This document shows, piece by piece, positions 10,190 through 63,045 of a DNA stretch of 64,000 nt. This stretch comes from Prostheceraeus crozeri. Taxonomy: Eukaryota; Platyhelminthes; Polycladida; Euryleptidae. Each line of letters opens with the position of its first letter. Position 1 is the first letter of the stretch. The position numbers were made by a program, and so were the translations under genes. The stretch spans positions 310,001-374,000 of the forward strand of contig CAJQUW010001859.1 in assembly GCA_907163375.1 (NCBI GenBank). Direction: 5' to 3'. The notes beneath the pieces were generated by a model. That model searched no databases and was not told the DNA's origin. It saw only the letters and a program-made list of their open reading frames with translations.

Positions 10190-10221
10190 AAGCATAAGCG
10201 CTTTCTTTTCTTCAGATGCTT
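10190..10221 (-). ncRNA. hammerhead-ribozyme-like motif without stem II (PLE copy 3)
   Basis: Minus strand, 32 nt. Stem I is AAGCAT (10221-10216) paired with ATGCTT (10195-10190), 6 perfect pairs. The core is CTGAAGA (10215-10209), then only AAA where stem II should be, then GAAA (10205-10202). Stem III is the self-complementary AGCGCT, and the unpaired base before the cleavage site is U (10196). All invariant core bases (CUGANGA, GAA, A15.1-U16.1, H17) are present. The 3-nt linker makes it resemble engineered minizymes, which work best as dimers; the palindromic stem III would allow dimer pairing. It starts 99 nt after the PLE stop. Activity is not demonstrated. Confidence 0.55.
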
Positions 10222-10320
10222 TATAAGTAATGAGATTCAGATAACATGCTATTTACAAAATTTGAAATATACATCATAAAGTTAGTCATTAGAAATAACA
10301 TGGAAATTTGGAACACATCT

Positions 10321-11159
10321 TCAAAGTGATAGGATTATGTACAGCATAGATATCTGTTGACGGCAAGATAATTCGGTCGAATTGAGTGATGGATCAAAGG
10401 ATTCAATGAAATATCTTTCTTTGTTTTTTCTTTCTACATCACAATCAGGAAACATCTTATAAAAAGGGAAAATAGAGAAAGATTTTCGTCCACATACATC
10501 TAAATGTTCACTTACACTTATCTGTCTGTAATTAGGGTTGTTTATCTGTTGTTTGTGAATTCTTGCTCTGCACCTTATTGTATTTTTAGTCTCGCCAATG
10601 TAATATTGGTTGCATCCGTGGCATGTAATTACGTAGATAACATTTTGTTGTTACATGTCTTATTGTAAAAATCTTTCCATTGAAATTATGCATAGATCCT
10701 TCCCTTAAATAATTACAATTTTCACATCTAGGATCTTCACATTTCTTTACAGAATATATTTTGTTTGTTGTTAGTTTAGAACTGCATAAAATTCTCTTGA
10801 GACTTTTTGGTTGTCGTTTACTTATAATGAATTTTGAGTTTTGGAATATGTTTTAGTTCGTTCATCTTCTGTTAGCATTGAATTCAAAGAATGGATTGTT
10901 GGGGAAATATTTGGATTTTTTGGATTATTTGTCGACAAAAGGAATAAGAGATTGATTGTCATTGTTGGCATTTAAATTTTGTTGCTCAGTTAAGAGTTGA
11001 GATCGATCAAATTGTAAGGCCTTGTCAATTCCATTTAATATTAATTTTTTGGGATACTTTTGTTTAGTTAAAAAAGAGTTCAATTCTTGAAGTCGCTCAT
11101 GCCTTACTTGTGGATCGCTAACAATTACACAAATGCGACGATCTTTTTCGTAGTAGACT
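10321..11159 (-). pseudogene. PLE RT thumb, linker and GIY-YIG endonuclease (copy 3)
   Basis: Minus-strand reading begins inside the RT thumb: YYEKDRRICVIVSDPQVRHE and LQELNSFLTKQKYPKKLIL. It continues through the linker (FVSTNNPKNPNIFPTIHSL, KRQPKSLKRIL), the cysteine block CEDPRCENCNYLREGSMH and the nuclease (CHGCNQYYIGETKNTIRCRA, RIHKQQINNPNY, VSEHLDVC). The C-terminal block is RYFIESFDPSLNSTELS, with the stop at 10323-10321. Frame changes near 10930, 10850 and 10640 break it. The RT palm is missing, so it is 5'-truncated, as is common for PLE insertions. It abuts copy 4, which runs the other way. Confidence 0.83.
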
Positions 11160-11160
11160 G

Positions 11161-11367
11161 ACTGTTCATAGACAGCAAATCAATAATAAGCAATATAGAA
11201 TCCTTAGTGTTAGTGCTCATATTCCCATGTGTTGTAGAAATCTTCCGATGCCTTTTGAAGCTGCGCCAATATATCAACTGCATCCATCTACGAATCGTTT
11301 GGACAGAGACAAAAAAGAGCAGTATTTTATTTCTATGCTTAAACCTAGTTTGAATGCTGCTTCATAG
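11161..11367 (+). pseudogene. PLE GIY-YIG endonuclease C-terminal fragment (copy 4)
   Basis: A continuous 68-codon plus-strand frame: TVHRQQINNKQYRILSVSAH, PMCCRNLPMPFEAAPIYQL, then DRDKKEQYFISMLKPSLNAA and TAG (11365-11367). It is the last third of a PLE nuclease, equivalent to the ends of copies 3 and 5. Its 5' junction abuts copy 3 directly in opposite orientation. Copy 5 starts 57 bases downstream in the same orientation, a head-to-tail arrangement typical of PLE clusters. Confidence 0.8.
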
Positions 11368-11423
11368 ATTTTGTATGTATTTTAGTTTATTTAGTTTTAA
11401 ATCAATCATTCCCATGAGTAGCC

Positions 11424-11994
11424 TTGCATGTCCATAACAAGAATAATCCGAAAACTTTCAATGATTTAATTCAACCAATATCCAATTATTTAAGATTGAA
11501 CGACTCATTCAAGAACTGTACAATAAAAGCCTCATATAAGCAACCAAAATCATTGATTTCTTTGTTGAACAACAACAATCGGAAAACGATTAATGGAATA
11601 ACTAAATGTGATAATAAACTATGCGAAACATGTAAAACCATGATAGCATGAAGAACGATTCATTTTAGAAAATGCTGGAAAAACTTTTGACATAAGAAAT
11701 AACTTCAATTGTAAATCATCAAATATTATCTATAAATTGGAATGTTCATGCGGACAGTATTACATCGGTCAAATGGGCGACACATTTAATCACAGAATGA
11801 CATTGCACCGCCAACATATCGCCAATCAACATTATGCCGTGTTAAAAGTCAGTAAACACATAAGTGACTGTGAAGGAAAATTCAAGTCGGCCCCCTTCTA
11901 TCAACTACCGCCTACAGCAACCAAGATTGAGCGAGAACATAAAGAAGCTATGTTCATCAATTTATTTCGGCCTTCTTTGAATAGTAATTGTTGA
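11424..11994 (+). pseudogene. PLE linker and GIY-YIG endonuclease (copy 5)
   Basis: The first part is the linker (HVHNKNNPKTFNDLIQPI, SYKQPKSLISLLN) and the cysteine block CDNKLCETCKTMI. After a frame change and stop near 11650 it continues with ENAGKTFDIRNNFNC and SSNIIYKLECSCGQYYIGQ. This gives Y-L and YIG with the usual ECSCG cysteines, then RMTLHRQHI, SKHISDC and the C-terminal EAMFINLFRPSLNSNC and TGA. The RT is absent (5' truncation). A decayed hammerhead-like motif follows 88 nt after the stop. Confidence 0.85.
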
Positions 11995-12082
11995 GTACTT
12001 TCATTTTAGATATCTCAATGATTTTCATAGATCTATCTTTATAGTTTGTAAATGATTCTATGTAACATACTTGTTTCATTCT

Positions 12083-12131
12083 ATGCAGTGCCTTGAAAAG
12101 CGAGACAACTCGTGAAATCGATCGGCAGCAT
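12083..12131 (+). ncRNA. decayed hammerhead-ribozyme-like motif (PLE copy 5)
   Basis: Stem I is ATGC-AG-TGCC (12083-12092) pairing with GGCA-GCAT (12124-12131), with an AG bulge. The core reads TTGAAAA (12093-12099) instead of CTGANGA, so C3 and G8 are changed. Stem II is GCGAG/CTCGT with an ACAA loop. GAAA is at 12114-12117. Stem III is the self-complementary ATCGAT, followed by C at the cleavage position (12123). G8 is catalytic in hammerheads, so this copy should be inactive. The architecture is otherwise complete. Confidence 0.55.
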
Positions 12132-12208
12132 GATTAAACTCAGTTTGAGGTACCCTTCTAGTTTTTATTTTTCTATACAATAACCTTTACCATTTATACC
12201 ATTTTACT

Positions 12209-12221
12209 TATATATATATAT
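12209..12221. repeat. short (TA)n tract after PLE copy 5
   Basis: Thirteen bases of TA repeat, 77 bases after the hammerhead-like motif of copy 5. Confidence 0.8.
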
Positions 12222-12319
12222 TGACAATGAGGTTTTTCCAACTTAAGTATTCAAAGTGCTAAATGCCTAAAAAAACAGAGCGTTATATAGTAAATAAGCA
12301 AGCGGAGTTGGATTACTGA

Positions 12320-12383
12320 TTTATTGCCATAACTGCAAGTTTCACGGAGATGCAAATATTACCGATCGTCAGACAGCAATAAA
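12320..12383 (-). ncRNA. hammerhead ribozyme with complete core (PLE copy 6 3' UTR)
   Basis: Minus strand. Stem I is TTTATTGCTGT (12383-12373) pairing over 11 positions with ATGGCAATAAA (12330-12320), two of them G-U. The core CTGACGA (12372-12366) matches CUGANGA. Stem II has CGG/CCG (12364-12362 with 12347-12345) and a long loop. GAAA is at 12343-12340. Stem III is ACT/AGT with a TGC loop. U at 12331 is the H17 base, so cleavage is predicted between 12331 and 12330. Every invariant position is retained. It begins 91 nt after the stop codon of minus-strand PLE copy 6. Hammerheads are known from PLEs; this instance is read from the sequence and untested. Confidence 0.72.
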
Positions 12384-12469
12384 AGGGAAGAATCTCAATA
12401 TTAAAAATCAAGGCTATACATATACATTTGAATTCAAATATGCATATGGACATGCATTGAGTATGAGAC
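12378..12469. repeat. 92-bp direct repeat, copy 1 (PLE 3' UTR)
   Basis: Matches 12780-12871 at 88 of 92 positions by eye. It is the 3' UTR immediately after PLE copy 6 on the minus strand and includes part of the 5' strand of the hammerhead stem I. Confidence 0.85.
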
Positions 12470-12474
12470 TATGG

Positions 12475-12717
12475 TCAAATGTTGGATAAAAGAAATTTTC
12501 TACGATGTCTACATTGTGATATCATTTCACTCTTTTTGTTAATCAGATATTCAGATTTAGATGTTATAATATAAAATTTCTCTGTCAAACATAAATTGCA
12601 GAATCTGCTGCCACAAGGATATGGTCTAGTATGTTGCACTATACTCCATCTGATGTCAAAGTTTTTGTTTTTATTTCTAAGAGACCATAAATACTTTGAT
12701 AATGATGTTTCGTTCAT
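12475..12717 (-). pseudogene. C-terminus of a YRDD-type PLE (copy 6)
   Basis: An 80-codon minus-strand frame: TSLSKYLWSLRNKNKNFDIR, then WSIVQHTRPYPCGSRFCNLC, LTEKFYII and ISQCRHRRKFLLSNI. It aligns along its length with the last 85 residues of the 710-codon PLE at 13062-15194, including the C-x-LC and CRHR cysteine/histidine pattern. Only the end of the protein remains. The rest of the copy is replaced by sequence leading to the inverted repeat at 12752. Confidence 0.85.
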
Positions 12718-12779
12718 GTATTTTTGTTGTTATCAACCATTATCAAAGTAGCTCCGCTTGCTTATTTACTATATATATA

Positions 12780-12871
12780 AATAAAAGGGAAGAATCTCAA
12801 TATTAAAAATCGAGGCTATACATATACATTTGAATTCAAATAGACATGTGGACATGCATTGAGTATGAGAC
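12780..12871. repeat. 92-bp direct repeat, copy 2 (PLE 3' UTR, broken in ribozyme stem I)
   Basis: Second copy of 12378-12469. Its match stops inside the 5' strand of the hammerhead stem I, and on its other side it runs into the long (TA)n at 12893. It is thus a sliver of another minus-strand PLE 3' UTR. Confidence 0.82.
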
Positions 12872-12889
12872 ATTATGATGATACTTATG

Positions 12890-12892
<3 letters not shown>

Positions 12893-12973
<81 letters not shown>
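12893..12973. repeat. (AT)40 microsatellite
   Basis: Eighty-one bases of perfect AT repeat, 88 bases upstream of the start codon of PLE copy 7. The Ile-Tyr ORFs across it on both strands are translation artefacts. Confidence 0.95.
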
Positions 12974-12977
<4 letters not shown>

Positions 12978-13061
12978 GAGCACTTTCTTCGAATACGCTT
13001 CAAACCCTTGGTGAAATTGCTCCTACTCCGCGAAGGTTGAGCACTTTGAACAAATTCGATT

Positions 13062-15194
13062 ATGATGGAGAAATTTAACTTGGATTTTTCGAATAAGAAC
13101 ATTCTACTACCTACAGAGGAACAGTACAAGATGCAATTACTATCCAAAATTGAAACTTTTATAAAGCGATTAAGATGGAGAGCAATCAATTTCAGTGTGG
13201 AGGGAGAAAATGCCGTTCCCTACGATGATACAATTAATTATGGTCTCAGAAGTCCCAACTGCCCTCATCCTGTTAGAGAATTGGAAAATTTTGAAAACGA
13301 CTTATTTGATTTGGTGAATAAGATAAAGTTCCGAAAAGTTAACTGCGACTTTCAAAGTCATATGAGAAGTAAAATGCAAGAAATCAAAAAGTGTGATCAA
13401 CTGCTTGTTTCTGCTGACAAGACTTCAAATATTTACAAGGTTCCTCCTGAGGAATACAAGCAACTTCTTCATGGTTCTATAACAAAATCATATAAGAAGG
13501 CTCGTTTGAATATTCAAAATGATATCATAATGGAAGGGAAACGCATTGCTACCACCTTCAATGTTGCCAATAAAATGGAAGTTTATGGCGAAAACGAATG
13601 TTTCATTACCTTAAAGGATCACAAGGACAATTTCCCAAATAATCCTTCGACACGCTTGATAAATCCGTCGAAAAACGAAGTTGGTCGTATTAGCAAGCAT
13701 ATCTTGGTTGATATCAATTCAAAGTTGAGAGCTTCTACTGCTGTTTTACAATGGATGAATACGACTGACGTTATTTCATGGTTTAATGATTTGAAGTATA
13801 AACAATCGGGAAAATTCATGGTATTTGACATTAAAGATTTCTATCCATCTATAACTGAAAACTTACTCGATCAGTGCTTAAAGTTTGCGGCTGACTTTGT
13901 CAAAATCGATCATCAATCGCTGAATACTATCAAGCATGCTCGAAAATGGCTGTTATTTAATAATGGTGAGCCATGGGTAAAGAAAGAAAACGAAAAGTTC
14001 GATGTATCAATGGGATCTTATGACGGCGCAGAAATTTGTGAATTGGTCGGAATTTTCTTGTTGCATATATTATCCAAAGAATTCGATACAAATTCGGTTG
14101 GATTATATCGGGATGATGGTTTGGCCTACTTTAATAACATCACTGGACGCCAAGATGACATAATTAGAAAGAGGTTTCACGAAATCTTCAAGTATTATGG
14201 ACTCCACTTGGACATATCATGCAATCTCAAGATTGTGAATTACTTGGACATCACTTCAGACCTTAATGATGAAACGTACAAGCCTTTCCGGAAACCAGAA
14301 CAAGATGTTTTGTACATTAACGCCAAGTCCAATCATCCTCAGTGTATTATTAAGCAAATACTCACAAATGTAGAAAAGCGGTTATCTGAGTTATCATCAA
14401 ACGAGAGCACATTCAACGACTCAGCTGATTTTTATCAGAAAATGCTGCACAACAATGGTTACGCGCACAAGCTCACCTATCAGAGTACTGAAAATAAAAG
14501 TCAACAAGAGAAGAAAAATCGAAAAAGAGTGATTACATGGTTTAACCCTCCATATAGCAAGAGTGTTTCTACAAACATTGGTCGGATATTTCTTGCTCTA
14601 ATTGATAAGCACTTTCACAAAGACCACATGTACAGGAAGATATTCAACCGCAATACAATCAAATTGAGCTACAGCTGCATGCCAAACGTGAAGCAGATTA
14701 TTAATGGACATAACAAGAAAGTAATGGAAAAAGAAGGGAAATCAAATGATGATAAAATGTGTAACTGTCTTAAAAAAGAGCAATGCCCCCTGAGAAACGA
14801 ATGTCTCACAAAGAATATGGTGTATGAAGCAACAATCTCCTGCGACGACTCCAAATATGAAGACAGAAAATACATCGGGATATGTGAAGGAACTTTCAAA
14901 TTAAGATTTGCGAATCACAAAAAATCTTTCAATCATGAGAAATACAAAAGTGAAACTGAACTATCAAAAGAATATTGGAAATTAAAAGAAGGCAATAAAA
15001 ATCCTAAAGTAGTATGGTCAATAAGAAGGAGATGCAAGCCATTCAAGCCTGGTGTATCAAAATGTGATTTGTGTCTTTATGAAAAATATTTCATTCTGAC
15101 GGATCAGACTGGCAAATTATTAAACAGGAGAAGTGAACTGGTGTCAAAGTGTCGGCACAGAAACAAGCACTTGCTTGCTAACTTCAGACTGTGA
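13062..15194 (+). CDS. Penelope-like retroelement polyprotein, RT plus GIY-YIG, intact 710 codons (copy 7)
   Basis: ATG at 13062 follows an in-frame TGA at 13047, which supports this start. The protein opens FNLDFSNKNILLP. RT blocks: ADKTSNIY (118-125), CFITLKDHKDNFPNN (about 180-194), KFMVFDIKDFYPSI with the first catalytic Asp (251-264), DVSMGSYDGAEICELVG (about 314-330) and GLYRDDG with the DD pair (347-353). The thumb region has VNYLDITSDL and NAKSNHPQCIIKQI. A CNCLKKEQCPLRNEC cluster (567-581) precedes a GIY-YIG nuclease (MVYEATIS, then YIGICEGTFKLRF at 604). The tail carries a second Cys/His set: CKPF, CDLC, CRHRNKH. No frameshift or stop is present. The YRDD motif and Cys-rich tail mark a group distinct from copies 1-5. 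Activity is unproven. Confidence 0.92.
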   Translation: MMEKFNLDFSNKNILLPTEEQYKMQLLSKIETFIKRLRWRAINFSVEGENAVPYDDTINYGLRSPNCPHPVRELENFENDLFDLVNKIKFRKVNCDFQSHMRSKMQEIKKCDQLLVSADKTSNIYKVPPEEYKQLLHGSITKSYKKARLNIQNDIIMEGKRIATTFNVANKMEVYGENECFITLKDHKDNFPNNPSTRLINPSKNEVGRISKHILVDINSKLRASTAVLQWMNTTDVISWFNDLKYKQSGKFMVFDIKDFYPSITENLLDQCLKFAADFVKIDHQSLNTIKHARKWLLFNNGEPWVKKENEKFDVSMGSYDGAEICELVGIFLLHILSKEFDTNSVGLYRDDGLAYFNNITGRQDDIIRKRFHEIFKYYGLHLDISCNLKIVNYLDITSDLNDETYKPFRKPEQDVLYINAKSNHPQCIIKQILTNVEKRLSELSSNESTFNDSADFYQKMLHNNGYAHKLTYQSTENKSQQEKKNRKRVITWFNPPYSKSVSTNIGRIFLALIDKHFHKDHMYRKIFNRNTIKLSYSCMPNVKQIINGHNKKVMEKEGKSNDDKMCNCLKKEQCPLRNECLTKNMVYEATISCDDSKYEDRKYIGICEGTFKLRFANHKKSFNHEKYKSETELSKEYWKLKEGNKNPKVVWSIRRRCKPFKPGVSKCDLCLYEKYFILTDQTGKLLNRRSELVSKCRHRNKHLLANFRL

Positions 15195-15273
15195 ATTTTA
15201 CGCCCCGCACACTTCTGACTACTATTTAGGCATAGAAAATTAGGCATTCAGATAAACAGTTTATTTCTATTTA

Positions 15274-16929
15274 CAGATTGTTTCATAAAAAATGGATCAC
15301 CCCTAAACATCGCCTTAACTTAAACTTTGTCTAACTCCGCCAAACTTGAACGAATTTCTCTGAAATTTGGAAGATATGTCAGTTGTGTTTACTAATATCA
15401 TTGTTGGAAATTTCAAGCATGAATATTGAGTTGTTTTCCTGTTATAGATAAAAAAGTAGTAGATAATTTGATCTTCATTTAGCAATGTTACACAAAATTA
15501 TACCTCACTCTTATAAAATTACATTTGTTTCCTTTGTTATGTAATATGTTGTTATAGAAGCCAAAAGCTATCAAGCAAAACAAAAATAAAGAAAATCCGT
15601 CAATCAGAGCCAGTATAGCACCATTATTCATCAGCAATAATGCAACTGCTACATGTGATTAACTGGACTTCATGTTCCATAGCTTCCTGACTTCGTTGCG
15701 GTGGTGTTGGCAGCACTCCTGATTGCTTTCAGCTAGAAATCTATCTCTTACCGGTTGAAAACAATACAAAGCACAAATGAACAATAACGATATCGCATTC
15801 ACAAAAGGCAAAGTGTCAGCCTTGGTAGAACTAGGGTTTTCTTTGCGAGCTACAAGCAAGCGACTAAATGTCCCTTACACAAATGTGCATCGATGGCATA
15901 ATGATGATTTTCGACTCTGTCGTAAAGAGGGCTCTGGCCGTCCACGCAAAACATCCAAACGTAGAGACCGCCTAATTTTGAGATTTGTTAAAGTTGATCC
16001 AAGTCTCTCGTTAACTGAGATGGCTGCACTAGACTCGTCTATTTCTAAGTCCACTATTCGTAGAAGACTTATTGAGTCGAATTTCAAGAGCTGTAAGAGG
16101 CCCTCTCAGATCGAATTATCAGATCAGCATACAAAAAGACGTCTCAGATGGGCAATGAGTCATTGTCACTGGCGAAATCAATGGGATCGGGTTGTCTGGT
16201 CTGATGAGGCATCAGTCCGTCTGAAGGATAGTGATGGTCGATTGAGATTATGGATAAAATCTGATCAGAAAATTCCGAGACATTTACATCGTCCCCGGGT
16301 ACAAGGTGGTTCGACTCTACTGATTTGGGCTGGCATTTGGACCAATGGCCGCTCTGAACTTCACATACAGCAAGGAACCATGAATTCTGAACGCTATGTG
16401 AATGTTTTGCGAATGAACATTGGCCAAATGACAGATCAACTTGGTGATCCATCGACTTGGCTGTTTATGGATGATAATGCTACGTGTCACAGGAGTAGTA
16501 GAGTCAACTTATGCAAGTCTCAATTAGGGCTTAGGACATTATCTTGGCCAGCTCGTTCTCCTGATCTGAATCCCATAGAAAATGTATGGAGTATTCTAAA
16601 ACGTAACGTTCGTCGTTCACTGCTACCTACAGATGGCGTATCACAACTTACGTCACTGTTAAAAAGAGAGTGGAGAAAGTTAGATCAGTCAAAAATCAAC
16701 GATATCATCGAATCAATGCCTAGACGAATTGGTAATGTCATTGACAATAAGGGTACGGCCACAAAATATTAGCTTCTTAAGAACCGTTACTGTATCATAG
16801 CTTATCAGATTATATAAGGACATTTAAATATATTAGGGACATGAAATAACATGAAAAATGCTTTCTGTATCATACTTATGTTTTATTTAGTCAAATTTTA
16901 GGATGATCCACTTTTTATGAAACGGACTG
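15274..16929 (+). mobile_element. Tc1-like DNA transposon inserted in the 3' UTR of PLE copy 7
   Basis: 1,656 bp. The left end starts CAGATTGTTTCATAAAAAAT. The reverse complement of the right end starts CAGTCCGTTTCATAAAAAGT. Similarity continues through TGGATCA and CCTAAA, giving imperfect inverted repeats of about 35 bp. TA flanks both sides (15272-15273, 16930-16931). The element lies between the PLE stop codon and its hammerhead motif and carries an open transposase ORF. Confidence 0.92.
15777..16772 (+). CDS. Tc1-like transposase, DD34E, apparently intact
   Basis: 331 residues, ATG to TAG. The N-terminal paired HTH region has ALVELGFSLRATSKRLNVPY and VHRWHNDD, a GRPRK linker (54-58), and a second HTH around SLTEMAALDSSISKSTIRRR. 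The catalytic triad is D143 (VVWSDEASV), D233 (LFMDDNATCH) and E268 (SPDLNPIENVW), with 34 residues between the last two, the Tc1 DD34E spacing. GGSTLLIWAGI is the usual glycine-rich region. The frame is uninterrupted and close to the normal Tc1 length of about 340. Such proteins bind the element's own inverted repeats and excise at TA sites. Confidence 0.93.
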   Translation: MNNNDIAFTKGKVSALVELGFSLRATSKRLNVPYTNVHRWHNDDFRLCRKEGSGRPRKTSKRRDRLILRFVKVDPSLSLTEMAALDSSISKSTIRRRLIESNFKSCKRPSQIELSDQHTKRRLRWAMSHCHWRNQWDRVVWSDEASVRLKDSDGRLRLWIKSDQKIPRHLHRPRVQGGSTLLIWAGIWTNGRSELHIQQGTMNSERYVNVLRMNIGQMTDQLGDPSTWLFMDDNATCHRSSRVNLCKSQLGLRTLSWPARSPDLNPIENVWSILKRNVRRSLLPTDGVSQLTSLLKREWRKLDQSKINDIIESMPRRIGNVIDNKGTATKY

Positions 16930-16980
16930 TATTTAGGCTATCTGTGATATTAACCAAAAGCTGTAGATTGCAATGTTCAT

Positions 16981-17026
16981 TTGGCTGATGATTGTATGAC
17001 CACATACATTAAACTCCGAGTACCAA
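16981..17026 (+). ncRNA. hammerhead-like motif with G12 substituted (PLE copy 7)
   Basis: Stem I is TTGG (16981-16984) with CCAA (17023-17026). The core CTGATGA is at 16985-16991. Stem II is TGTATG/CATACA with an ACCA loop (16993-17008), flanked by a T-T mismatch also seen in the minus-strand motif at 12320. The GAAA block reads TAAA (17010-17013), so the general-base G12 is U. Stem III is ACT/AGT with a CCG loop; the H17 base is A (17022). Without the Tc1 insertion it would start 128 nt after the PLE stop. The fold is complete but the G12 change should abolish most cleavage. Confidence 0.65.

Positions 17027-17059: not shown

Positions 17060-17095
<36 letters not shown>
17060..17095. repeat. 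(TA)18 microsatellite at the 3' end of PLE copy 7
   Basis: Thirty-six bases of TA repeat, 33 bases after the hammerhead-like motif at 16981-17026. Confidence 0.92.
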
Positions 17096-17139: not shown

Positions 17140-18088
17140 AATATTTTTAATGTTTTTAAAATATTAGTACCTGTATAAACGTTAAGATCATTATTTTATT
17201 AAAATAATAGATATAAAACTGACATACAAGCAAGCATGCCGGCACGTAAAAGGGGCAGCATGGGCAAGTATAAAAAAGGCATTTTGCATAATATGCACAC
17301 CTACATGTATATACAAGAAATTGGACTATTTTACACGCCTTTATTTATTTAAATTATATAACCATAGACCAGGAAGCACTTACTAGTTTCCCTGCCGCGC
17401 GAATCGCGCGGATTTCCATACTAGGCGTGGTGTAGAACGTTGTGGATCGAGCTTGATATCATTACATCGGAGCATGATAATCATCGCTTTGCAATAACAA
17501 TTAGCTGCGGTAGGAATAGTTCCGTAGTCCATAGGTTATTAGTCCATAGTATTGCATGTTCGCATCGGTATCGGCACCTTTATTTGTATCTAAAGTATGG
17601 GAACTTTTATTTGAAAATTTTGACTTTATATGTGATTTTTGAATTACTTTTCTTCTGCTTAAATGAATACGGAGTTCAAATGATCTTATATAGAGGTTTC
17701 TTTTAACAAATGCATAAACATAATGCCATGATTTAACAATATTATAAGTAGGTTCTATTCCGATGAAATAACGTGTGAAAATATGAGGCTTATAGAATAA
17801 GGAGAAGTTAAAAATATGACAATGTGATGCAACCGAAATCGAATCATATATTGTAGGTTCTATATACACTTTTACGTACAGTGACTTAAACTTGATATTC
17901 TTAATGTGTACTTAACTGTAAGGTTATTATTATTCACGACACCGGTATCCAGCTTTGATACGGAAAATATTCAAAAATAAAATATTTGATCAAATCATTA
18001 TGATCTATTTATGTACAAAATATCAAACAATATAATCTAAACCTCTGTGATAACTCTAATGATACAAACAAGAAAAACAAGAGCCAGA

Positions 18089-19034
18089 TCAGAAATGTCC
18101 AAAGTATGAGAGTCTCTTTTCATTGAATTTGATGAATTCATCAGCAACGGTGTGGATATTAACATCGTCCATGTAATCCTTATGCAATACTGCAAACAAG
18201 ATATTGTTAAGGTGGTTTGGTCCAGTCTTGGCTCTGGTCCATGTTTTCAGGCGTCGCATTGCGCTGAAACTTCTTTTCGCTGTCGCTGAGCTCATGGGTA
18301 CTGTGCAATAATATTTCAGCAAGTAGTGGGTAATTTTGCAAGCTTTTTTCGTCATTGGCATTGCGTTAAATATATCACAAATTGTTGATATCTTTGTAAC
18401 CGTCTTTATTCTTGGTTTGATCTGTTCATTTCTCATTTTGAGGAGGACTGGCAAACCCTTTAGTTCTTCTTCAATTTCTGCTTTGCGAGATTGTTGAAGC
18501 TTCATTACTCTGGACACAATTGGAAATATTTTGTCAAATGATTCCTTCTCGAGCTTGCCATTTACAGAGTCTATCAGGGCTATTTCAATATCTTCTAATA
18601 TTTTCAAATCATTTTGGGAGAATCTTCTCTGCATTGCTCCGTCGATCAAATTGATCAAATCAAAATATTTCTGGAAAAAGATTGGAACGTTGTATCCGGT
18701 GTATCAATATCAGGCAAGTCTGTCATTTCGGACAATATTTCTGGCAGTTTTCTTTTTCTCTTTTCCTTTCTCTCCATGATGCTATCTGTCATTTCGTCCC
18801 CTAATTCTGCTTGTAGCTTTTCTGCATGACTAGCTAGTATGCTAATCTTACTAGCCTCGTCATTGCAGCACATTTCTTTGAATCGTTGCTTCGCAAGGTT
18901 TTGAAGACGAAATTCGCTTCTTGAGCACTAACATCAGATCTTTGAGTAGTCCTGGAAATATTCTCCATTATACAGATCACGTCGTATGAGCACTTAATGC
19001 TAGCGATCAAAAAAGTGTCCCCCAATTGATTCAC
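18089..19034 (-). pseudogene. hAT transposase C-terminal portion, frameshifted (copy A)
   Basis: Three minus-strand frames join into one hAT C-terminal region. The first is 19034-18834 (LGDTFLIASIKCSYDVICIM, then QEANFVFKTLRSNDSKK). The second is 18873-18655 (NDEASKISILASHAEKLQAE). After a second shift the third continues FFQKYFDLINLIDGAMQRRF at about 18680-18089. The last frame holds the hATC dimerisation domain, VPMSSATAKRSFSAMRRLKT then LNNILFAVLHKDY, ending YFGHF and TGA. The N-terminal BED finger and most of the RNase H-like catalytic core are missing. The final 190 codons have no lesion. Best related families by memory are ZMYM/TTF-like hAT proteins. Confidence 0.85.
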
Positions 19035-19079
19035 TATTCCTTTCGACTTTCGACTCCCAACTGTATGACATTACCTATT

Positions 19080-19620
19080 TTGTAAATGTGACCGCAGACT
19101 TGCCCACGCCTTGTGAAAAGTCAGCATTGTTTCTATTTGCCCATCCTCTATAAATTGCACAATGGCAAATTGCACCTGTCAAAATGCAAGACACAGTAGA
19201 ATAACTTGGCCGCCGCGCAAAAAGGCAACATAGAAACACGCGCCCACGTTGTACTCGTAAAAAAAGGCAACATATGTACATTAATAACTTATGCCGACCA
19301 TGTAAAAAGGCAAAATAGATCAATTTGCTCACCCTACAAAACGGCAATCATGTTGATCAACTTGCCCACTCTGTCAACCAAAAGGCGACACATATTAACT
19401 TGTCCATCCTGTCTAAAGGAAACATCCTAACTGAAGTCACTTACAGCGTACTTGAAAAAGGGCAATATACTAGCGTAATATAGGTAATTAAACATTTGCC
19501 CATCCCGTGAAAAGGCAATTTGCCCCTCCTGTAAAAAGGCAGCATTGCCCACCCTGCCCACCGCGTGAAAAGGGCAGCATGGGCTTTGCCCACCCTGCCC
19601 ACCCCGTGCCGGCATGCTTG
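19080..19620. repeat. hAT subterminal repeat array, copy A
   Basis: About a dozen degenerate units on the theme TTGCCCACCCTGTAAAAAGG then CA, spaced roughly 35-50 bases, fill the terminal 540 bases at this end. The opposite end (17231-17290) has only two or three such words (TAAAAGGGGCAGCATGGGCA, TAAAAAAGGCAT). Subterminal repeats in hAT elements such as Ac are transposase binding sites. Short ORFs rich in Gly, Trp and Ala across this array are artefacts. Confidence 0.8.
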
Positions 19621-22325: not shown

Positions 22326-22368
22326 TAGGTAATGTCATACAGTTGGGAGTCGAAAGTCGAAAGGAATA

Positions 22369-52700: not shown

Positions 52701-55700
52701 GGAAGTCTTTTTCCTCTTTTACCCTTTGGCTGTTGCAGAGCTGCTACTCTATATGTTTATCCTTTGCCTCTACCACCAATGTTTGCTTCATGAGATTGCA
52801 AACTCTTATTTTTTATCTTCTGATTGATACTTGCATATAGTGTTGGTGAAAAACATGTTCCTTCGGAAATAAACAAATGATCATGACACTATTTTTTTCA
52901 GTTGCGAAATCGTTATTACAACTTTCAATACTGCACTTGCAGTAGACTCCTGAACATTAGGCCTATTATGATATTTCGCATGGAATGTCATGCATTTGTG
53001 TCCTTGAATATCTCGAAATGTGCAATGAATTCATTCTATGAACATTGGCATAAAAAAACCATTTTTTACTTCTCGAATTTCGAAATCATAGAAATTACAT
53101 TGCTATGATTTTGTGGAACTTGTGGAAATCTGCAATAAATAAAGCGAACTTCAAAACATCACTCCGCGTAAGAATGATTATCATGATTTGGTCTTATTGT
53201 TATCTAAGGTGTAGTGAGTAATAACTAACTCGATGCCTTGGAGTTAGGCTACCCATGATAAGAAAACAATCATGACTCAATGACTTAATAGGTTGTTTAA
53301 TATGTGTATATTACTGTTGAATTCAGAATGTAATTGATTGGTAGAAAACGAAATCTAATTGACTAAGTGGCTGGTCACTTTACTTGATGCCTGTCGCAAT
53401 AGTCACAGTGCTAAATTTTATGAATTCCCAGACGATAATGTGGCTGCAGGCTTGCATCCCCGAAATTATTGACATGCCATTATGATGTATATGGTGAGTT
53501 AGTGACATATCTCGATTGGTTGCAAGCGTAATTCTTAAGAGTGGATGCATGCAAAACGTTGCTTTTGAGATTATTGAAAAACACACATTTTTGATTCACA
53601 ATATGGGCGTTGATATTTTCGTTTTTCGGCTTTAATCAAAAATGTCAGTTCACCGCTTACATTCCAATACACCGAAGGAAAGAATATTATAAGGGTAAAT
53701 GTCTGCAGTTGAAATATGTGTCTTTCGATAAAATTTCGTTGTCTGTCTGGTGATCTGAACAATGATTTGTGTGTAATTTTCATTCCTTTTTGCAACTATC
53801 TCAGTGATGTCTTTGCATGCGCATAAACAAACGCATGCGAGAGTGCTTTTCCATGTAAAATAATTTCGTTTGATATTCTTTGCTTTCTTTCAGTAGAATT
53901 TTCATGATCGCCTACGAAGAAGCTCGTCCTTTATAATGATTGCAAATGGCAATAACAATGATATTGATATTCAATAAAGGAGAACTATGAATACAACACG
54001 TGGTGCTTTGCAGGGTTGGAACCGTCGGCGTCATTAAAACCGGGGGGACGGTGGCTGGCGTCTATGTACCGGTTGGTTAAGGTTTAAATCGTCAGACATT
54101 GTGTGTTCAAATTATGTCATTAGACACTATTCAATTCCCACACAGCGTACATGAAATGCATGATATGGTAGGCCTACCGGTACTCCGGATAAGCAAGAGT
54201 TACCATTTATAATGCAATTATTCACACTTTGATAACATGTTTTGTGCGATGAACAGTTGTACGCGCAATAACTCGTACTTAGTTGCAGCCCAACTTTATA
54301 ATTTATGATGATGTCAACTACATTTTCAAAGTCAATAAAAAACAAACAAATTTAAAACAGATATCAAAATATTGACCCAAACGAGCATTGCTATAATAAT
54401 AATATTGAAACAATCATCATTGTTTCAATATACATATATCGACAAGTATATCCCGCGTCCACAGGAAAGCTTTAAGCGGTCAAAAAATTCTAAATTCCAA
54501 TATAATAAAAGTTTTTCTGACGATTGCAGTTCTGAGATGAACAATTTGATCACTGACTGTACTGATGCTATCAAATATTTTGTCTGCGACGTACTAACTT
54601 GATTTGAAGTAATTCACTGAAGTGATATTTATTTATTTACTTGTGAGGGAATTCTAGTGATTTGCGACGTCAATTGCGAACTCTCTCTAATACAGTTTGA
54701 TTTCAGAACTTTTCAATTTACATTGACGTATAAGAGTTTAGAACAACGATCTCGCCAACTTTGTTATCAATTTTTCATTTCAGTGAGGAGTGTCTCTACA
54801 ACGTCAATCAAAATTTATCGTGTGCCGTTAACTTATCGCATTACACAATCCACAGTCAAATGTTCGGGTAGTAGGCCCTAGGTTGCATTGAAATCCATTA
54901 TTCATTGCATCTCTAAGCTTCACGTGTTATATAAACTATCACAGTGAACTTATTCATAAATCTGGAATAATTTTACAGTAGATAGGCTGAGGAATACACA
55001 CTGCTTCAAAAATTCACATCATAGATAAAGTAGGGTTTGAACTATATGTATAATCATAAGTTGCCAGTAATCATTTTCTAACTTGCTGAGTAATTTTGAA
55101 GAAATTGTCATAAGAAATCGAGAAAACGCACCCTCATTACGATCGCATATTGATAACAAACATCTTTTCTAGTGAGCGTGCATTCTCTAATGATGACAAA
55201 AGTCGTCTTAGTATAACATCGATTACAAAAGCATCTAAATGACTGCCGTTACATTAATCTGACTTTTACATGCTTTTTTTCTACCGCCATCTGCTGCACA
55301 TTTTGAAACATGTAAGGTATCAAATTACCCAGCACGGCCAACAGTGACCGATCATATTTACGTCAAATTTCATTCTGCTCTGAGAAACGGTTTGTTTCTA
55401 TGGACAAAAGCTAGCGGCCAACACAGACTGTTATCTTTCTGTCCATCGATCAGCCCGCTGATCACAGAAATTGACAACAATAAAACCTCTAGAATGGAAA
55501 TTAAGTTTCATGCAATGCACAATAACGGCACATAAATCGCACGCATTTTCACTTAGATGCACCTGCCAACGTCTGCATCATTGGGTTAGAATCAGTCACA
55601 TGAGTAAATCGAAGCCTTTAATTGGTTCTTCATGCCCCAACTTAGTTCCCCCGAATGTGCCGCGACCTTGAGTCAATTTCCATTCTAGCGAACTTCAGAT

Positions 55701-57912
55701 AAACAGTTTATTTCTATGCCGCTGATGGTGCGCTATTGTTTATTCATAAAATTTCTCTTGCCGACTTCTAGGATGCTCTTGATCTCAAGAAGGTCTGATA
55801 AATATTATTCATGAATCGTGATATGTTACTTCAATATGTTGCTTTTCTCAGACATGCTAAAATCAAGAAATGATACAGCTTTTGGACGAACTAGTCACAC
55901 TAGTTGTGTATTTATGGAGTGGGGGTTCTGTCTATTCACAAAAGTTGATTCATTTCTCACAGGTGTATCAATTTCGATGAGTGCCGTCAATGGCACCCAA
56001 TACACCGGGAATTCCTGTGTGACGATTGTTGACGTTAATCAATATTAATGAATATAAGAAGAACAAACAATGGGTACACCAACCGATAAGATATTTGTTT
56101 ACTGCATAATCAGAAGCTTAACATTAAAGTATTGCTCACCTTAGCAATCAGTGCAATAACAGCGGTTAGATGCATGTAGATAGAAGCTATTGCTCAGTAG
56201 TGCTCATTAACAGCACGTACAAAATATGAAGAAGCCTTGACAGAAGTCATTGATAATAGACCCTTCATAATAGATAATGCCGTTACCAACAGCATTGAGG
56301 AAACTCATAGACCCAAGCACGCAGACAAGGCCAATTTATCTCTGTGATTTGAGCCAATCCCCAACAAAGCCCCGATAGACTGACAGATCTTTTCTCGGAC
56401 ATGCGCTATCCAGCAGCAGCTAAATGGGACCTCCTCGGTGTCTAGTCAAATTTTGTAAGATATAGCTTATCCCGATATGTGTTAAATGATAACCAAACTT
56501 AAATCATTAAAAATCATTAAATAGCAAAAATATCACTCGCATAATATACTCATTGCATTTAAAGAATGACTGAGACTTCACTCGATCCAGGTTACCGCGT
56601 ATTGATTTTGCTTTGAACTCATGCACTTGATGATCTATTTTTAATAAGGTAAGTAATTCTCCTTTGACAAGACATGAGAAAGCAAAATGTAATTGCGCGA
56701 AATTGTGTGTCGTAGCCATCCTGTCCATCAAACTGGGTATAATTGTGAAGCGATGCGCGCAATCTAATAGTCAAAATGAGAAAATGAAGTGCACGCCAGA
56801 CGTTTATTCCTAAAATGAACATGAAAGAAACAGACGATAGAGCTAAATTTTGCTAGACATAAAGCCATGAGCAGAAAGAAAAGGTTTTAACACTAGGATG
56901 GCACAATAATATATTAAGAGATAGATACACGTCCGCTTCTATATCGTGCAAACGCATCGATTTTCATAACAAATATACATTCGAACTTCACAAAACACTA
57001 AGGGTATTCGACATCCTGGTGATTTACGTAATTGAGCGAGTGTCATAGGCCAGAGACACACAAAATAAGTCAAAAATCATCAGTCATAAGTCTAGCATTA
57101 AACTAATCGAGATGTACTTCCACACAAAAATAGTATTGGCCTTCAGAAATATTAAAAATGGATGTTGTCGCATTGTGAAATAGTTGTTTGGAAAAGTTTT
57201 TTTGACTCAAGACGATACAATAGCTTGACCATAGCCAAATGATGCGATATAGGACTACTGTAGCTTAAGCAAACATATTTGACAGAATCTGCATTGTAAT
57301 GGAATATCTGCTGGAATCGTAACAATGCCTCATGTGGTTCTTCAACTTGCTACATGTACATTGAATAGGATGAGTCAAAAGTTTCTATAGTTTCATTCGT
57401 ACATGAATTTGGCATAAAAACACAGACTGTTTCAAAACTTCGAAGAAGGAGTACTGCTGAGAATGTTGTGTTGAAAAAGTTCCTCCTTTTTCACCACGAG
57501 AGCTTCGAATCTGAATGCGAAACACAATGGGTACTGCTATTGCTTCAGTATAATAAAGCAACAAAAAAATCTACAATGCAGACTGAACAACGAACCGATT
57601 TTGCAATATCCCAAATGAGTATACTGATTTGGGATATAGTACAATCTATTCGTTGCTTTATTTTGTCAAGATTCTGAAGCACAGTGCGAGTACAATAGTG
57701 AACTTTAGATTGTATATTCTTGATTATATATTGGACTCAAGACCAAAAAATTCTTTTAATTCATTTTCTTTTATGATTATGCAACAAATGGTGAGATTAT
57801 CATATCTTTTTCACAATTATGACGAGATATCTATTCAGTGATCGTAATTGTTATGACAGTTGATGTGTGGTGGTGAGGGTTTGATCCTGCCAATTGACAC
57901 AATCGCTTGTAA
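46799..57912. other. Long anonymous stretch
   Basis: No supported genes. Items seen: tandem TTAATACTAT units near 47886-47918; repeated TTTGCGCA words near 49725-49820; a 14-bp inverted pair CTAGAATGGAAATT at 55489-55502 and 55675-55688; a 24-base match of 55694-55717 to 15247-15270; a hairpin ATATCCCAAAT/ATTTGGGATAT near 57606-57637. None defines a gene. Confidence 0.5.
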
Positions 57913-57981
57913 GCGGCCATAGCTCAGTTGGTACAGCAGATGTCTAGCTAACTTGGGTCGTAGATTCGAATCCTGCTAGCG
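57913..57981 (+). pseudogene. tRNA-like sequence, SINE head or tRNA pseudogene
   Basis: It contains a perfect A box TAGCTCAGTTGG and a near-perfect B box GATTCGAATCC at tRNA-like spacing, so a polymerase III promoter is plausible. The acceptor halves GCGGCCA and TAGCGCA do not pair, and the T stem has an A-C mismatch, so it is not a functional tRNA. A tRNA-derived SINE head is the likeliest explanation; no clear SINE tail was found. Confidence 0.55.
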
Positions 57982-60900
57982 CACATCTTTTGCATGGCAA
58001 TTTGATCTATCGTTTATTTCATTATTGCACAGTGATGCAATGAACTAAAGCTAATGATTTGATTCAACGAAGTTAAAGCTATACTGCAGGGCCATTTCTG
58101 CGTGGTAACATTTAGCTAGTTCAATTAGGCTACTACGTGTGCATTAAATTAATCTTTGTGAAGCTATCAAGACAAGTGTTTGATAATCTAAGTGATCTTC
58201 ATACTTAACTTGAATATATTGACATACTTGATTGAACCTAAACGCCATTACAGTTATCGGGAACTCAGTGGATATGAGCGACATATGAACCTGGATCCCG
58301 TATAATCAGCGATGTAGACACGATTATTATCATTATTACGCAAACGTCAGGAGTCAATAGTACAAATTATAAGAACGTCACTAGAAATGGCAAATTTTTT
58401 CTAAAGCGCTAAAACCATAAAATTCTGTCATTAAATGATTGAGTCGATCATACTTAGATGTCGACAAATGGTATTCATCATTTGCTTATCTGCGTGTAGG
58501 ATCTCAGAGTTCAATTTCAGTAATTCAATTTTGGGACTTGAAGATGCGCATAAGCGTACTACATTACCCCTCAACTGTCATTGACTGCAGAGGAATGAGA
58601 GTAAACATCTTGCTCGTCAACATTCTTGGCTGTATTAAAAGCGATTATTTCCTTCCGAATGTAAATAAAGGCTTCGGAATTTTTTGGCTTCAAAAATGCG
58701 TTAAGATTCAGTAAGTTATCTCTGAGGTCTCTAAGAAAATAAACCCATCCAAATGACTAACAGATAATGAAACTTGATATCCACGTAAGATTTTATATCA
58801 CATTCAATAACTATCAGGGTAATACAAAATGAACTCGTCTGACAAGCATCACTCCGTTTACTTTTAGTACATCAATTCGTTTTCAAGATTTTTTTTCTTC
58901 CCTTCTCGATTTTGAGTGTTGCATCTAAAAAGCAGACAAGAGGAGGATGTCTAGTTCATTAACACTGTGTTATTTGTGAAATGGAGTAGAATCACCAATG
59001 ACTTTCTTAAGGTCCATTCACACTGGACGTCGCGCGGTCCCGCGCGTCTGTGTATCAATATCCCGATAATTTTATTAAGGTTCTGAACGAAAATTCTGAC
59101 GCGCGAGGACGCGATGCGCATCGACTAACTTCCATTGAATAGACTGCAGAGCTATTGATTAACAAGTCATCGTTTATAAACATAAAATAAAAAAATGAAT
59201 CAACATGATATAATAACATCAACAATATTGACAAGCCGGATATTATTCCGCTTCTATATGAATTACAGTAAAATAGACTAAACGAATTGCAGTTCAGTGA
59301 AACATAAAAATGCAGTCGATCTCAATCACCTTCATCAGTGCAAATTGTTTTAAATAGTGAATTATGGATCTGAAAGTGTAAACAGACAGTGCATTAATTT
59401 GATTATCTGTCAGTATGTTCCAGAATTTACTCGTGTTCAATGTAGAGAAATGACATTTATAATCATGATGACAACAATTATGATAGGAATATGACAGCTA
59501 ATATGACAGGAGCAAGGCTGTAAATACATGTTTTGATTACAAATTAGATGGTTTTATATATGTCGAATTGCCAAGAAATGTCCTGTTTGAATCATTGTAT
59601 TATCCTTCCGAGCATTGACAACACGTCTATGACATTTTACATGTAACTGTACTCCAGGTCTATATATGACAATTTCGTTTAAATTGCGGATTCTGATCAA
59701 GCAATCATGAAGGTTGCAGGAACGATGCAACATAAATGTCTATCTTCATTCAAATATACTCGCATTTATACATGGACAAACCTTCATAGGCTTGGATAAT
59801 AGTCCAGAGGCTTTCCGCATGCCTACTATAGTCGTATACAGTGTATATAATAAAAACAACACCAAAAACATTGCTCTTTGTTGAAAATCAAGTTATGCAA
59901 AAAATATTGCGCTTTGTGACTGCTTGTCAGATGCGAATATTAGCACTCCATGATATATTCCAGATCAACCACCAAATGAAATACACCTGATTCATTTTTA
60001 GAATAAAGAACTGAAAAGTTTTGGCTTCAAGTTTATCTATAATTGAACAAATTTGGAGATTCACATGTTCTGGTGAATCCATACCCGGAGGAAGCTGCGA
60101 GAATCTGAATTCGAAATATCATATTTTGTGCAGTTGTATTTTTTTAAAAAAACTCGGATTATTATGATATGGTCAGACTCAAAGACAACTTGACCAGCCT
60201 TTTAATTCTCGTAAATCAAATGGAATCTACGAAAAATGTAGGTAAATGTAACTTCCTAAAGGGGTGGACAAAAACTGCATCAGTTTGATGGATTCAAACC
60301 AGCAATTTTAGTGACAGCTGTTGAGATGGTAGCTAACGCCATGAAGCAAAAAGAGAAAGGATAACTATTAAGCTATGAAATAAAAAAAATCATTAAATTT
60401 TCAGGACCCTCACTGTATGAACCACTAATCGATGACTGGAATAGAGAACGTCGGTAACTGCGCAGAAATACCGATTGCACTTGCTAGCTTCTCAATTTCT
60501 TAATTGTGCATTGTACAACAAGTGAAATTTACAAAGCGGACAGTTGAACGTATGTTCCATTCATCAGTAGCCGAGACTGTAGATTTAGTTGTTTTTATTT
60601 ACGAAACAACAGCTTTACGGATCGAGATATGACCTTCTGAAAACATGCACCTATTTCTTCATTGATGCAATTTGTTGATGATTGTGCCATCTTATTATTA
60701 GCTGGCAACAGCGGTGATTGCCACATTGTAACTGAATGCCGATTCGGCCTTCATGACTTGCGTAAGGGGAAAGTGAGGCCACATCCGACCTTACGTATAC
60801 CGCAGGATGATTGCGTTCTCCTGTAAGGCGAGAATGGCTACGAAACTATGAATAATTTCTTTACTTCTGTTGGTTTTTTGAAGTCAAAGCAACATTATTA

Positions 60901-62870
60901 TTGTAAGATAGTCTCTTTTGACGCCACACAGATATTCAAAAATGCAACAGTTATGGAAACCATCGACTTCTCTGGAATTCCAATAAGTGCAATATTTTGA
61001 AGGAACTCTTAGGGATTGCCATTCAAATGCATAACTTTTGTCGACCGATTGATGGAGTCGGATTAGGCAATGCATTGGGGAACCAAATTTCCAGCATTTT
61101 TGCGGTGAAGGCGGAGAATGGTCTAAAATATGATATTCTTACGTTATTGGATTTCTCACAGTCGATATATTTTTGACCGATATATATCTTTCACCGATTT
61201 GAGCGAAATCGAGGTAATGCATACAAGCTGTTGTCAATTTATAATCGTGACTGTTCAAAATGTGTAATGCTATTAAGAAGGCGATGAAATTCATTTTCTT
61301 TGAAGTCCATATGGTACGAAAATGAATTTGAAATTAGCGATGAATTTATGACAATGAATACTAAAGCGACGCATTCATTTTAGATGCCACAGGAAGAAAA
61401 TAATGGAACGTTGTCTCTATTAGGTTTCATGCCTCCCTACCACAGTAGAACAGACGTAGACTTTGTCTAGTACAAAGTCTAGACTTTGTCTTTGTAGCTT
61501 CTTTGAATTTGCTCTAAGAAATTGACGTCAGAATTTGATGGGATCTGTAGTTTCATGTTCTAAGAAATGATTAACCAAAGAATTAATATCAACTAATGAA
61601 GTAGTCAGTTCCATTTCGCTTATTGAAGGCAAACTACCTGCCCCTGAGCAGTTTTATGATTTTCACAATTTTTTGTGAGTATCATTGATATTGACAAAAC
61701 GAATCAAAGCAAATTGGCATCTATTTGTCAGTATCAAGGAGCATTTCCTATATGGCTCATTAATGGAGAAAAGCGCTCTGGAAGTTGCCTAAATGACTTT
61801 CTCACTTACCATCCATGAAAAAGGAATTTACTATTTTATCCGGATCCAGCGAGCACATTGACTTGACACTCATTAGACTTAAGGCCTACTTACGTGCTAT
61901 CCTGAAACGTACTGTGTTTGTAATCTGTGTGCAAAAAGAATTTTAGTATACTCTTCATGTGTCGTGTCTGTGGTGATGATTACTTAGCACTTTTTGTCCT
62001 CTTTGTTGTCTTAGAATAATAATAAATATATTTTCTATTTTTAGCATTTTTGCACCCTTCAGCATTGCTTATCAATTATTCATTCCATGTCTCATTTTGC
62101 TTCCTTTTAAATTAGAGTGCTATATATCGTATAGACTGTATTACGGTAAGTCAGCTATTTTTTTGTGGTTCACCTTCTGAGGGGTCACACTTGAAATTTC
62201 AAAGCCTTCATGAAATCATGAAGTAAGTCTACTCTATCCACTTCATCTGCACAACATCTTGTTAAATAAATAACTGCCATTTCGCATTCAGACTACATAT
62301 TTTTCCTTGGGCTAGATATCAAAACAACTTCAATATACTAAAATATTCAAACATTGGGTAAATTGCAATACGTAATCGAAGTCTTACTCATACGCATATC
62401 GGTGAAGTCAATACTTATAGCTAGCGGGTATGAATGGAACGTTTAAAGCCAAAATACGCCACTTGACCGAAAATTAGGATTCACTGTAGACACCACTTTG
62501 ATGATACGCTATAGGACTTGGTCTTAAAAGAACCTAAACTACAAAAAATGTATATAACAATTCCCAGTCTCCACTGTAAAACTAACCAACAAGAAAATAA
62601 GAATTTAAAAAAGAAATCTTGAAGTTCTCAATTTTTTGGCAATTTACATCAAAGAACCAATTTTGCTTTCACCAAAAGAAGAGCTCGAAGAACTTCAAGA
62701 TTACTTATTTCTAGTTATTCCTTGGGATTTACTTATTATTACTGGGTATTTTACTCATTATTCCCTAGCTTTTCTTGGGATTTACTAGAGGTCCCTCTAC
62801 AGCTTTTGTACTATGTAGTATCGTCTTTTAGAATTTGTCCACCAAGAAATTTAAGTCTTTAAATTTCAAG
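57982..62870. other. No recognised gene; CpG-rich patch and palindrome
   Basis: Anonymous sequence. A short CG-rich patch at about 59028-59125 contains GCGCGGTCCCGCGCG and GACGCGCGAGGACGCG in otherwise AT-rich DNA. At 61472-61489 is the perfect palindrome ACAAAGTCTAGACTTTGT. No gene can be supported. Confidence 0.5.
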
Positions 62871-62930
62871 TATATATATATTTCATATATATGCTTTCAT
62901 ATATTTCATATATATATATAAATATATATA

Positions 62931-62967
<37 letters not shown>

Positions 62968-62968
62968 T
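62871..62968. repeat. compound (TA)n tract at the 3' end of PLE copy 8
   Basis: About 98 bases of TA repeats interrupted by TTTCATATAT-type units. It lies 35 bases beyond the hammerhead motif of PLE copy 8 in the minus orientation. Confidence 0.9.
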
Positions 62969-63003
62969 TATATTTAAAAAAGAAAACAAAGTTTCTTGCA
63001 TTG

Positions 63004-63045
63004 ACCGAACATGTTTCAGAATGTTAACATTCCATCTTCAGCGGT
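63004..63045 (-). ncRNA. hammerhead-ribozyme-like motif with complete core (PLE copy 8)
   Basis: Minus strand. Stem I is ACCG (63045-63042) with CGGT (63007-63004). Core CTGAAGA is at 63041-63035. Stem II is GAATG/CATTC with a TTAA loop and an extra G-U pair, plus one bulged U. GAAA is at 63017-63014. Stem III is the self-complementary ACATGT, and U at 63008 is the H17 base. All invariant positions are present. Stem I is only 4 bp. It begins 132 nt after the PLE stop codon. The loop-free stem III suggests it acts as a dimer, if at all. Confidence 0.6.

Follow-up and report, generated by a model that had tools for sequence, protein, structure and literature searches.

Hammerhead-like motifs at a similar place after Penelope-like endonuclease stops in a polyclad flatworm contig

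A 64,000-nucleotide stretch of the genome of the polyclad flatworm Prostheceraeus crozeri (GenBank assembly GCA_907163375.1, contig CAJQUW010001859.1, positions 310,001 to 374,000 of the forward strand) holds several diverged copies of Penelope-like retroelements. It raises the question of whether the short motifs that follow the endonuclease stop codons of some of these copies are hammerhead ribozymes, and how they relate to the TA microsatellites nearby. We refer to the whole stretch as the window and number positions from its first base. The five motifs are very probably minimal type I hammerheads of Penelope-like elements, of the kind associated with pseudo-long terminal repeats (pseudo-LTRs), which lie at the 3' ends of copies from several families and would cut tandem RNA into units.

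Five motifs and the copies that they follow

Judged by its transposons, the window looks like repeat-rich animal DNA, with a GC content of 0.31-0.44 in 2-kb steps. Copies were defined by tblastn of the window's own Penelope open reading frames (ORFs) against the window, giving eight that bear an endonuclease (A, A2, B, C, D, E, F and G), to which a fragment, H, is added here.

3020-1419, reverse strand: copy B, endonuclease-bearing and truncated inside the endonuclease; its GIY-YIG match reaches the Pfam cutoff
3574 to about 4000, forward strand: fragment H, without a complete endonuclease, picked out by eye from tblastn
5859-6065, forward strand: copy G, a decayed endonuclease fragment with a guessed end; the first in-frame stop is at 6075
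10321-10650, reverse strand: copy C, GIY-YIG endonuclease C-terminus (PF01541, E 3.2e-8, above the Pfam cutoff); stop TGA at 10323-10321
11137-11367, forward strand: copy F, endonuclease-bearing, 42% identical to C where aligned
11647-11994, forward strand: copy D, endonuclease with 43% identity to C over the aligned part; stop TGA at 11992-11994
12475-12729, reverse strand: copy A2, endonuclease C-terminus found by tblastn; stop TGA at 12477-12475
13050-15194, forward strand: copy A, the longest Penelope-like ORF (714 amino acids from stop to stop), with a reverse transcriptase and a GIY-YIG-like end; stop TGA at 15192-15194
63178-63999, reverse strand: copy E, endonuclease C-terminal part reaching the window end; stop TAA at 63180-63178

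We call all of these copies Penelope-like because of their pairwise and profile matches and of motifs recognised by eye. No Pfam match was obtained for A, D, F or A2, and a recheck of A, D and F at E<=10 gave none. The reverse transcriptase match of copy A is weak (E 2.4e-4, far under the model cutoff), and its endonuclease profile matches that of the other copies with a probability of only 16.8% (E 0.0015); the A2 and A endonucleases share 46% identity over 83 amino acids. The GIY-YIG match of copy E is likewise weak (E 0.0062, under the Pfam cutoff), and this copy is 50% identical to B over 38 amino acids by tblastn and 32% identical to C where aligned. Overall, endonuclease identity is 32-46% within groups where aligned, and 30% over 44 profile columns between groups. 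A predicted structure of copy A (mean predicted local distance difference test score, pLDDT, 32) was unusable.

The five motifs, with the transposon that separates one of them from its copy, are as follows.

10190-10221, reverse strand: motif of copy C, with a 6-bp stem I, core CTGAAGA, 3 nt where helix II is expected, GAA, and an A-U helix III with loop GCGC; predicted cut after base 10196
12323-12380, reverse strand: motif of copy A2, with an 8-bp stem I, core CTGACGA, a helix II of 3 bp above a U.U, GAA, and helix III ACU/AGU; predicted cut after base 12331
12089-12127, forward strand: motif of copy D, with the core decayed to TTGAAAA, a 5-bp helix II and palindromic loop TCGA; predicted cut after base 12123
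16981-17026, forward strand: motif of copy A, with core CTGATGA, a helix II of 6 bp above a U.U, TAA for GAA, and helix III ACU/AGU; predicted cut after base 17022
63004-63045, reverse strand: motif of copy E, with a 4-bp stem I, core CTGAAGA, a 6-bp helix II with a slip at its base, GAA, and loop CATG; predicted cut after base 63008
15272-16931, forward strand: Tc1-type transposon between the stop and the motif of copy A, with a duplicated TA, terminal inverted repeats, a DDE_3 match (E 6.2e-16) and Tc3-type helix-turn-helix domains

All five motifs lie downstream of an endonuclease stop and on the coding strand, as the preliminary description of this sequence had it; we could read them there directly, and a scan blind to position recovered them. 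Measured from the final base of the stop to the base at which stem I begins, the distance is 99 nt for C, 94 nt for A2, 94 nt for D, 128 nt for A (after subtracting 1,658 bases, the Tc1-type transposon plus one copy of the TA) and 132 nt for E. The earlier values for C, A and E are unchanged, whereas those for A2 and D, given as 91 and 88 nt, become 94 nt in both cases. What had been called a fixed position is a similar place after each stop, but one that spans 94-132 nt. The cores, described as CTGANGA and GAAA, are exact in three motifs (C, A2 and E), but the A motif has TAA for GAA and the D motif reads TTGAAAA.

Helix III is very short throughout, being an A-U pair with a palindromic tetraloop in the C, D and E motifs, where the tetramers themselves differ (GCGC, TCGA and CATG), and 3 bp with a 3-nt loop in those of A2 and A. 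The last two also have in common the U.U at the base of helix II, and although the sequences of their stem I and helix II are different, pairing is kept around the same core. Several Penelope families within one window carry the hammerhead in almost the same position even though their endonucleases have diverged to about 30-46% identity where aligned. This speaks for a use of the ribozyme in the life cycle of the element.

Parts of the 3' regions of A and A2 recur elsewhere in the window. A 24-base piece of the copy A 3' untranslated stretch (15247-15270) has an exact match at 55694-55717; no convincing hammerhead adjoins this or a 20-base exact match of the copy A 3' end elsewhere in the window (best score 17.2). 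The A2 3' region (12284-12469) is partly repeated near its 5' side (12752-12871), as 92 bp in direct orientation (95.7%) and 24 bp inverted (100%), perhaps reflecting a rearranged or template-switched copy.

Placement of the motifs against chance

Both strands of the whole window were scanned, without regard to position, with a descriptor consisting of a stem I of at least 3 bp, the core, helix II, GAA, the A-U pair and H17. The five motifs took ranks 1, 2, 3, 4 and 6, with scores of 41.9 (12323-12380), 39.7 (63004-63045), 37.5 (16981-17026), 36.0 (10190-10221) and 30.7 (12089-12127); rank 5 fell to 49265-49309 (34.4), part of a retrozyme-like pair described below, and the next score was 28.6. 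At a threshold of at least 34, four motifs and 49265-49309 made up five matches, where dinucleotide shuffles averaged 0.088 and none of 600 reached five. With the threshold lowered to at least 30, where the D motif enters, six were observed against 0.75, a number again reached by no shuffle (0/600); at 28 or above there were nine against 2.04, reached in 2/600. A plain descriptor, from which only the helix II slip and the palindrome bonus were removed while other post hoc settings were kept, gave three matches of at least 34 (two motifs and 49265-49309; mean 0.062, 0/600 shuffles reaching three) and six of at least 28 (four motifs, 49265-49309 and 11404-11466; mean 1.58, 6/600 reaching six). 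Its best score, 37.4, was reached in 4/600 shuffles.

The placement of the matches is also non-random. Five of the top six with the full descriptor start 61-160 nt after the stop of A, A2, C, D or E, and with the plain descriptor four of the top six and five of the top eight do so, where 0.023 would be expected for six. When positions were rotated, none of 1,719 rotations matched the observed number and the best placed one match in the zones; these zones were defined after the motifs had been reported in the preliminary description, and the rotation test covers copies other than B, F and G. For the zone test a stop near 6100 was guessed for G (first in-frame stop 6075) and B was left out.

Several results weigh against the hammerhead assignment. 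The descriptor was partly tuned once the motifs were known, which concerns its weights, the tolerance of two mismatches in the core, the helix II slip and the bonus for palindromic loops, and with the plain version the A motif drops to 27.0 and rank 8. At the gathering cutoff Rfam has no hammerhead match in the window, and no Rfam hammerhead model (RF00163 and others) matches any of the five motifs at E<=10, in searches of the whole window and of 9900-12700. The complete hammerhead is the minimum-free-energy fold in none of the five, and the fold energies of the C and A2 motifs are ordinary (z 0.64 and -0.99; those of D, A and E are -2.07, -1.69 and -2.16). Nor were relatives confirmed when proteins A and E were compared with viral contigs and A with genome contigs; no relatives from other genomes were found, so that any sign of conservation comes from copies in this window. 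A MAFFT alignment misaligned four of the motifs.

In addition, not every copy has a motif, which follows five of the eight endonuclease ends (A, A2, C, D and E). Copy B ends within its endonuclease, the Pfam match covering profile positions 2-39 of 78, and has no descriptor match of at least 24 downstream. Sequence related to D starts about 50 nt after the stop of copy F (by eye), and no descriptor match was found 61-160 nt after that stop; a match at 11404-11466, which begins 37 nt after it, is at chance level (score 28.0, two core mismatches). For copy G there is one weak candidate, whose score turns up about two times per window in shuffles:

6229-6270, forward strand: weak candidate for a decayed motif, some 130 nt beyond the guessed end of copy G; score 28.1, zone fraction 0.0063

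A further point on the same side is that no descriptor match of at least 24, that is, no 5' pseudo-LTR motif, occurs between the (TA)40 tract and the ORF of copy A, the one copy in which it can be judged, since the others lack 5' parts or run off the window. With no such tandem pseudo-LTR feature seen, membership among Penelope hammerheads rests on the other features. Finally, mutants in the ribozyme of the Anolis element PAc still inserted in vitro (PMC11167929). Together with the need of that ribozyme for protein when cleaving in vitro (PMC11167929), this limits any claim that the cut is essential.

Decay, TA tracts and the proposed cycle

Among the alternatives, the one that survives best, and which we consider possible if rather unlikely, is that the motifs are decayed relics, inert in every copy seen; it is compatible with an origin as Penelope hammerheads. 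C3, G8 and G12 are needed for hammerhead cleavage. All core bases and helices are kept in only two of the five motifs (A2 and E), while the other three, which count against present function, have lost a core base or a helix: the C motif is without helix II, C3 and G8 are changed in the D motif, and G12 is changed in the A motif. Changing C3 or G8 led to loss of activity in the published case (PMC11167929). In addition, only fragments of coding sequence are left in C, D and A2. Because of the defects in three of the five, the word ribozyme is true of the set by descent and not as a statement of present activity. Nevertheless, the A2 and E motifs retain core and helices, and retroelement copies in genomes are mostly dead, so that decay in the copies seen says little about a live family.

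A second alternative concerns the TA tracts, which lie beside the copies.

3556-3573: (TA)n at the 5' sides of B and H (by eye)
10062-10105: (TA)22 at the 3' side of C
12209-12220: (TA)6 between the convergent 3' ends of D and A2
12894-12973: (TA)40 between the 5' sides of A2 and A
17060-17095: (TA)18 at the 3' side of A
62871-62966: TA-rich array at the 3' side of E, including (TA)>=6 tracts at 62909-62920 and 62933-62966

The preliminary description took stop, hammerhead and (TA)n as a conserved 3' module, with the tract within 33-84 bases of four of the five motifs. That spacing is borne out, since the nearest downstream (TA)n lies 84 nt from the C motif, 81 nt from D, 33 nt from A and 37 nt from E, and 102 nt from A2. 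In such a module, carried by the element in the manner of Terminons, (TA)n in the RNA would prime insertion into TA tracts. In favour of this, every one of the seven (TA)>=6 tracts of the window adjoins a Penelope copy, as do all four period-2 arrays of Tandem Repeats Finder, and 9/9 tracts of (TA)>=5 and 10/13 of (TA)>=4 lie in the Penelope-adjoining regions. However, the tracts occur on 5' sides as well as 3' sides (12894-12973 and 3556-3573), and copy A is flanked by (TA)40 before and (TA)18 after, so TA microsatellites as sites of insertion are the more economical explanation. A spacing that varies over 33-102 nt and tracts common to diverged families are likewise what a target site would give. 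We therefore regard an element-borne module as improbable and (TA)n as probably an insertion target that is not part of the element, the element borders being approximate; AT-rich targets have been reported (PMC11167929, PMC3846280). Of the proposed 3' module, what stands is the recurrence of the hammerhead 94-132 nt after the stops of diverged copies, but not its (TA)n part.

Chance is the weakest alternative and, in our judgement, highly improbable. In its favour, CTGANGA and GAAA are short sequences that occur often in AT-rich DNA, and they were found by searching downstream of stops; Rfam detects none of the five, and counts of CTGANGA (36 in the window against 32.9 expected) and of CTGANGA-gap-GAAA (9 against 6.6) are at chance level and were dropped as evidence. 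Once the requirements for stem I, for helix II and for the A-U pair with H17 are added, however, the motifs rank 1 to 4 and 6 without regard to position, a result obtained with neither shuffles nor rotations. An E-type DNA pattern of 19 specified bases, also tried, matched two IMG/VR contigs (L001 and L002), which we take as chance because they carry phage- or plasmid-like partition genes, by eye, and have no descriptor match of at least 28.

The assignment of the motifs to minimal type I hammerheads of Penelope-like elements suggests a cycle that follows the published scheme for these elements. On tandem or read-through RNA, the motif would separate the stop of one copy from the start of the next, and hammerhead cleavage at the copy junctions, probably as a dimer or helped by an element protein, would cut the RNA into units. 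The element protein would then reverse-transcribe one unit into an AT-rich nick. The 3' end of a genomic copy would run from roughly 100 untranslated nucleotides through the hammerhead and a short tail to the (TA)n microsatellite that received the insertion.

An AUG follows the predicted cut by 0 nt in the C and A2 motifs and by 6 nt in those of D and E; in the A motif it is 82 nt away. The chance of at least four of five having an AUG within 0-6 nt is about 0.0025, counted post hoc, and the frame of the A2 AUG closes after five codons. It is a long shot that the cut leaves RNA units starting at the AUG of the next copy, both separating tandem copies and giving nearly leaderless messages, while the tail and (TA)n steer insertion into TA microsatellites, as a non-telomeric counterpart of Terminons. 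The variants described here, namely the two forms of helix III, the AUG beside the cut and the TA on both sides, offer concrete constructs for testing.

Neighbouring features and known systems

Separate from the Penelope motifs is the following pair, which by its sequence resembles a non-LTR retrozyme.

49036-49430, reverse strand: retrozyme-like pair of units of about 225 bp that both contain a classical type I hammerhead in decayed form

One hammerhead (49040-49084, reverse strand) is the only Rfam hammerhead match at E<=10 in the window (RF00163, 20.4 bits, E 3.4, under the gathering cutoff of 34); by eye its core is intact and its stem I broken, and it is absent from the descriptor list. 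The other (49265-49309) has a 6-bp stem I and AAA for GAA. The two units aligned with a score of 133, and none of 500 shuffles exceeded 107.5, whereas the best local alignment alone was marginal (27 against a shuffle maximum of 26). With metazoan non-LTR retrozymes the pair has in common the unit size of about 225 bp (class range 150-450 bp) and tandem type I hammerheads, although here both units are decayed; retrozymes may be mobilised by Penelope-like elements (PMC7229834).

Elsewhere in the window, 17230-19620 and 21783-24173 form a perfect inverted repeat with 2,391-nt arms, 100% complementary and 2,162 nt apart, which is either a recent fold-back insertion or an assembly artefact; each arm has the same ORF of 204 amino acids, hAT-like by eye only. 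An ORF of 364 amino acids at 4617-5711 (forward strand) has a DDE_3 match of 28.3 bits against a cutoff of 28.6 and perhaps represents a second DDE transposon, and a tRNA-like stretch lies at 57913-57983 (forward strand; 24.2 bits, under the gathering cutoff of 29).

The general fact behind our assignment is already in print, as the preliminary description had noted: hammerheads, mostly of the minimal type I form, are known in Penelope-like elements (PMC6155905, PMC7761336, PMC7229834, PMC11167929, PMC6431247), in some cases mapped to pseudo-LTRs (PMC6155905, PMC7761336, PMC11167929), and their role is described as unknown (PMC7761336). The available passages hold no statement of a 94-132 nt spacing or of an AUG beside the cut, and no search was aimed at either point. 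Palindromic helix III loops like those of the C, D and E motifs, a likeness that favours our assignment, occur in amphibian hammerheads that cleave as dimers; one axolotl hammerhead has a single-pair helix III with a palindromic tetraloop and the other a U.U at the base of helix II (PMC7229834). The motifs of this window agree with the minimal type I hammerheads of Penelope elements (Cervera and de la Pena 2014; Lunse, Weinberg and Breaker 2017) in type I topology, tiny helix III, coding strand and position outside the ORF; they differ in that no 5' pseudo-LTR copy is seen in the window and that helix III in A and A2 has 3 bp, where the accounts available have none.

Two systems are closest in arrangement. 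The Poseidon element PAc of Anolis carolinensis (PMC11167929) also has a hammerhead at the junction of pseudo-LTR and ORF and AT-rich target DNA, which it cuts, but its start codon is at helix II, 26 bp before the cut, whereas here an AUG lies 0-6 nt after the predicted cut in four of the five. In the Terminons of bdelloid rotifers (PMC6431247) a hammerhead near the 3' end is likewise followed by a simple repeat; those elements are endonuclease-deficient and have telomeric repeats directly after the hammerhead, whereas here the (TA)n lies 33-102 nt further on.

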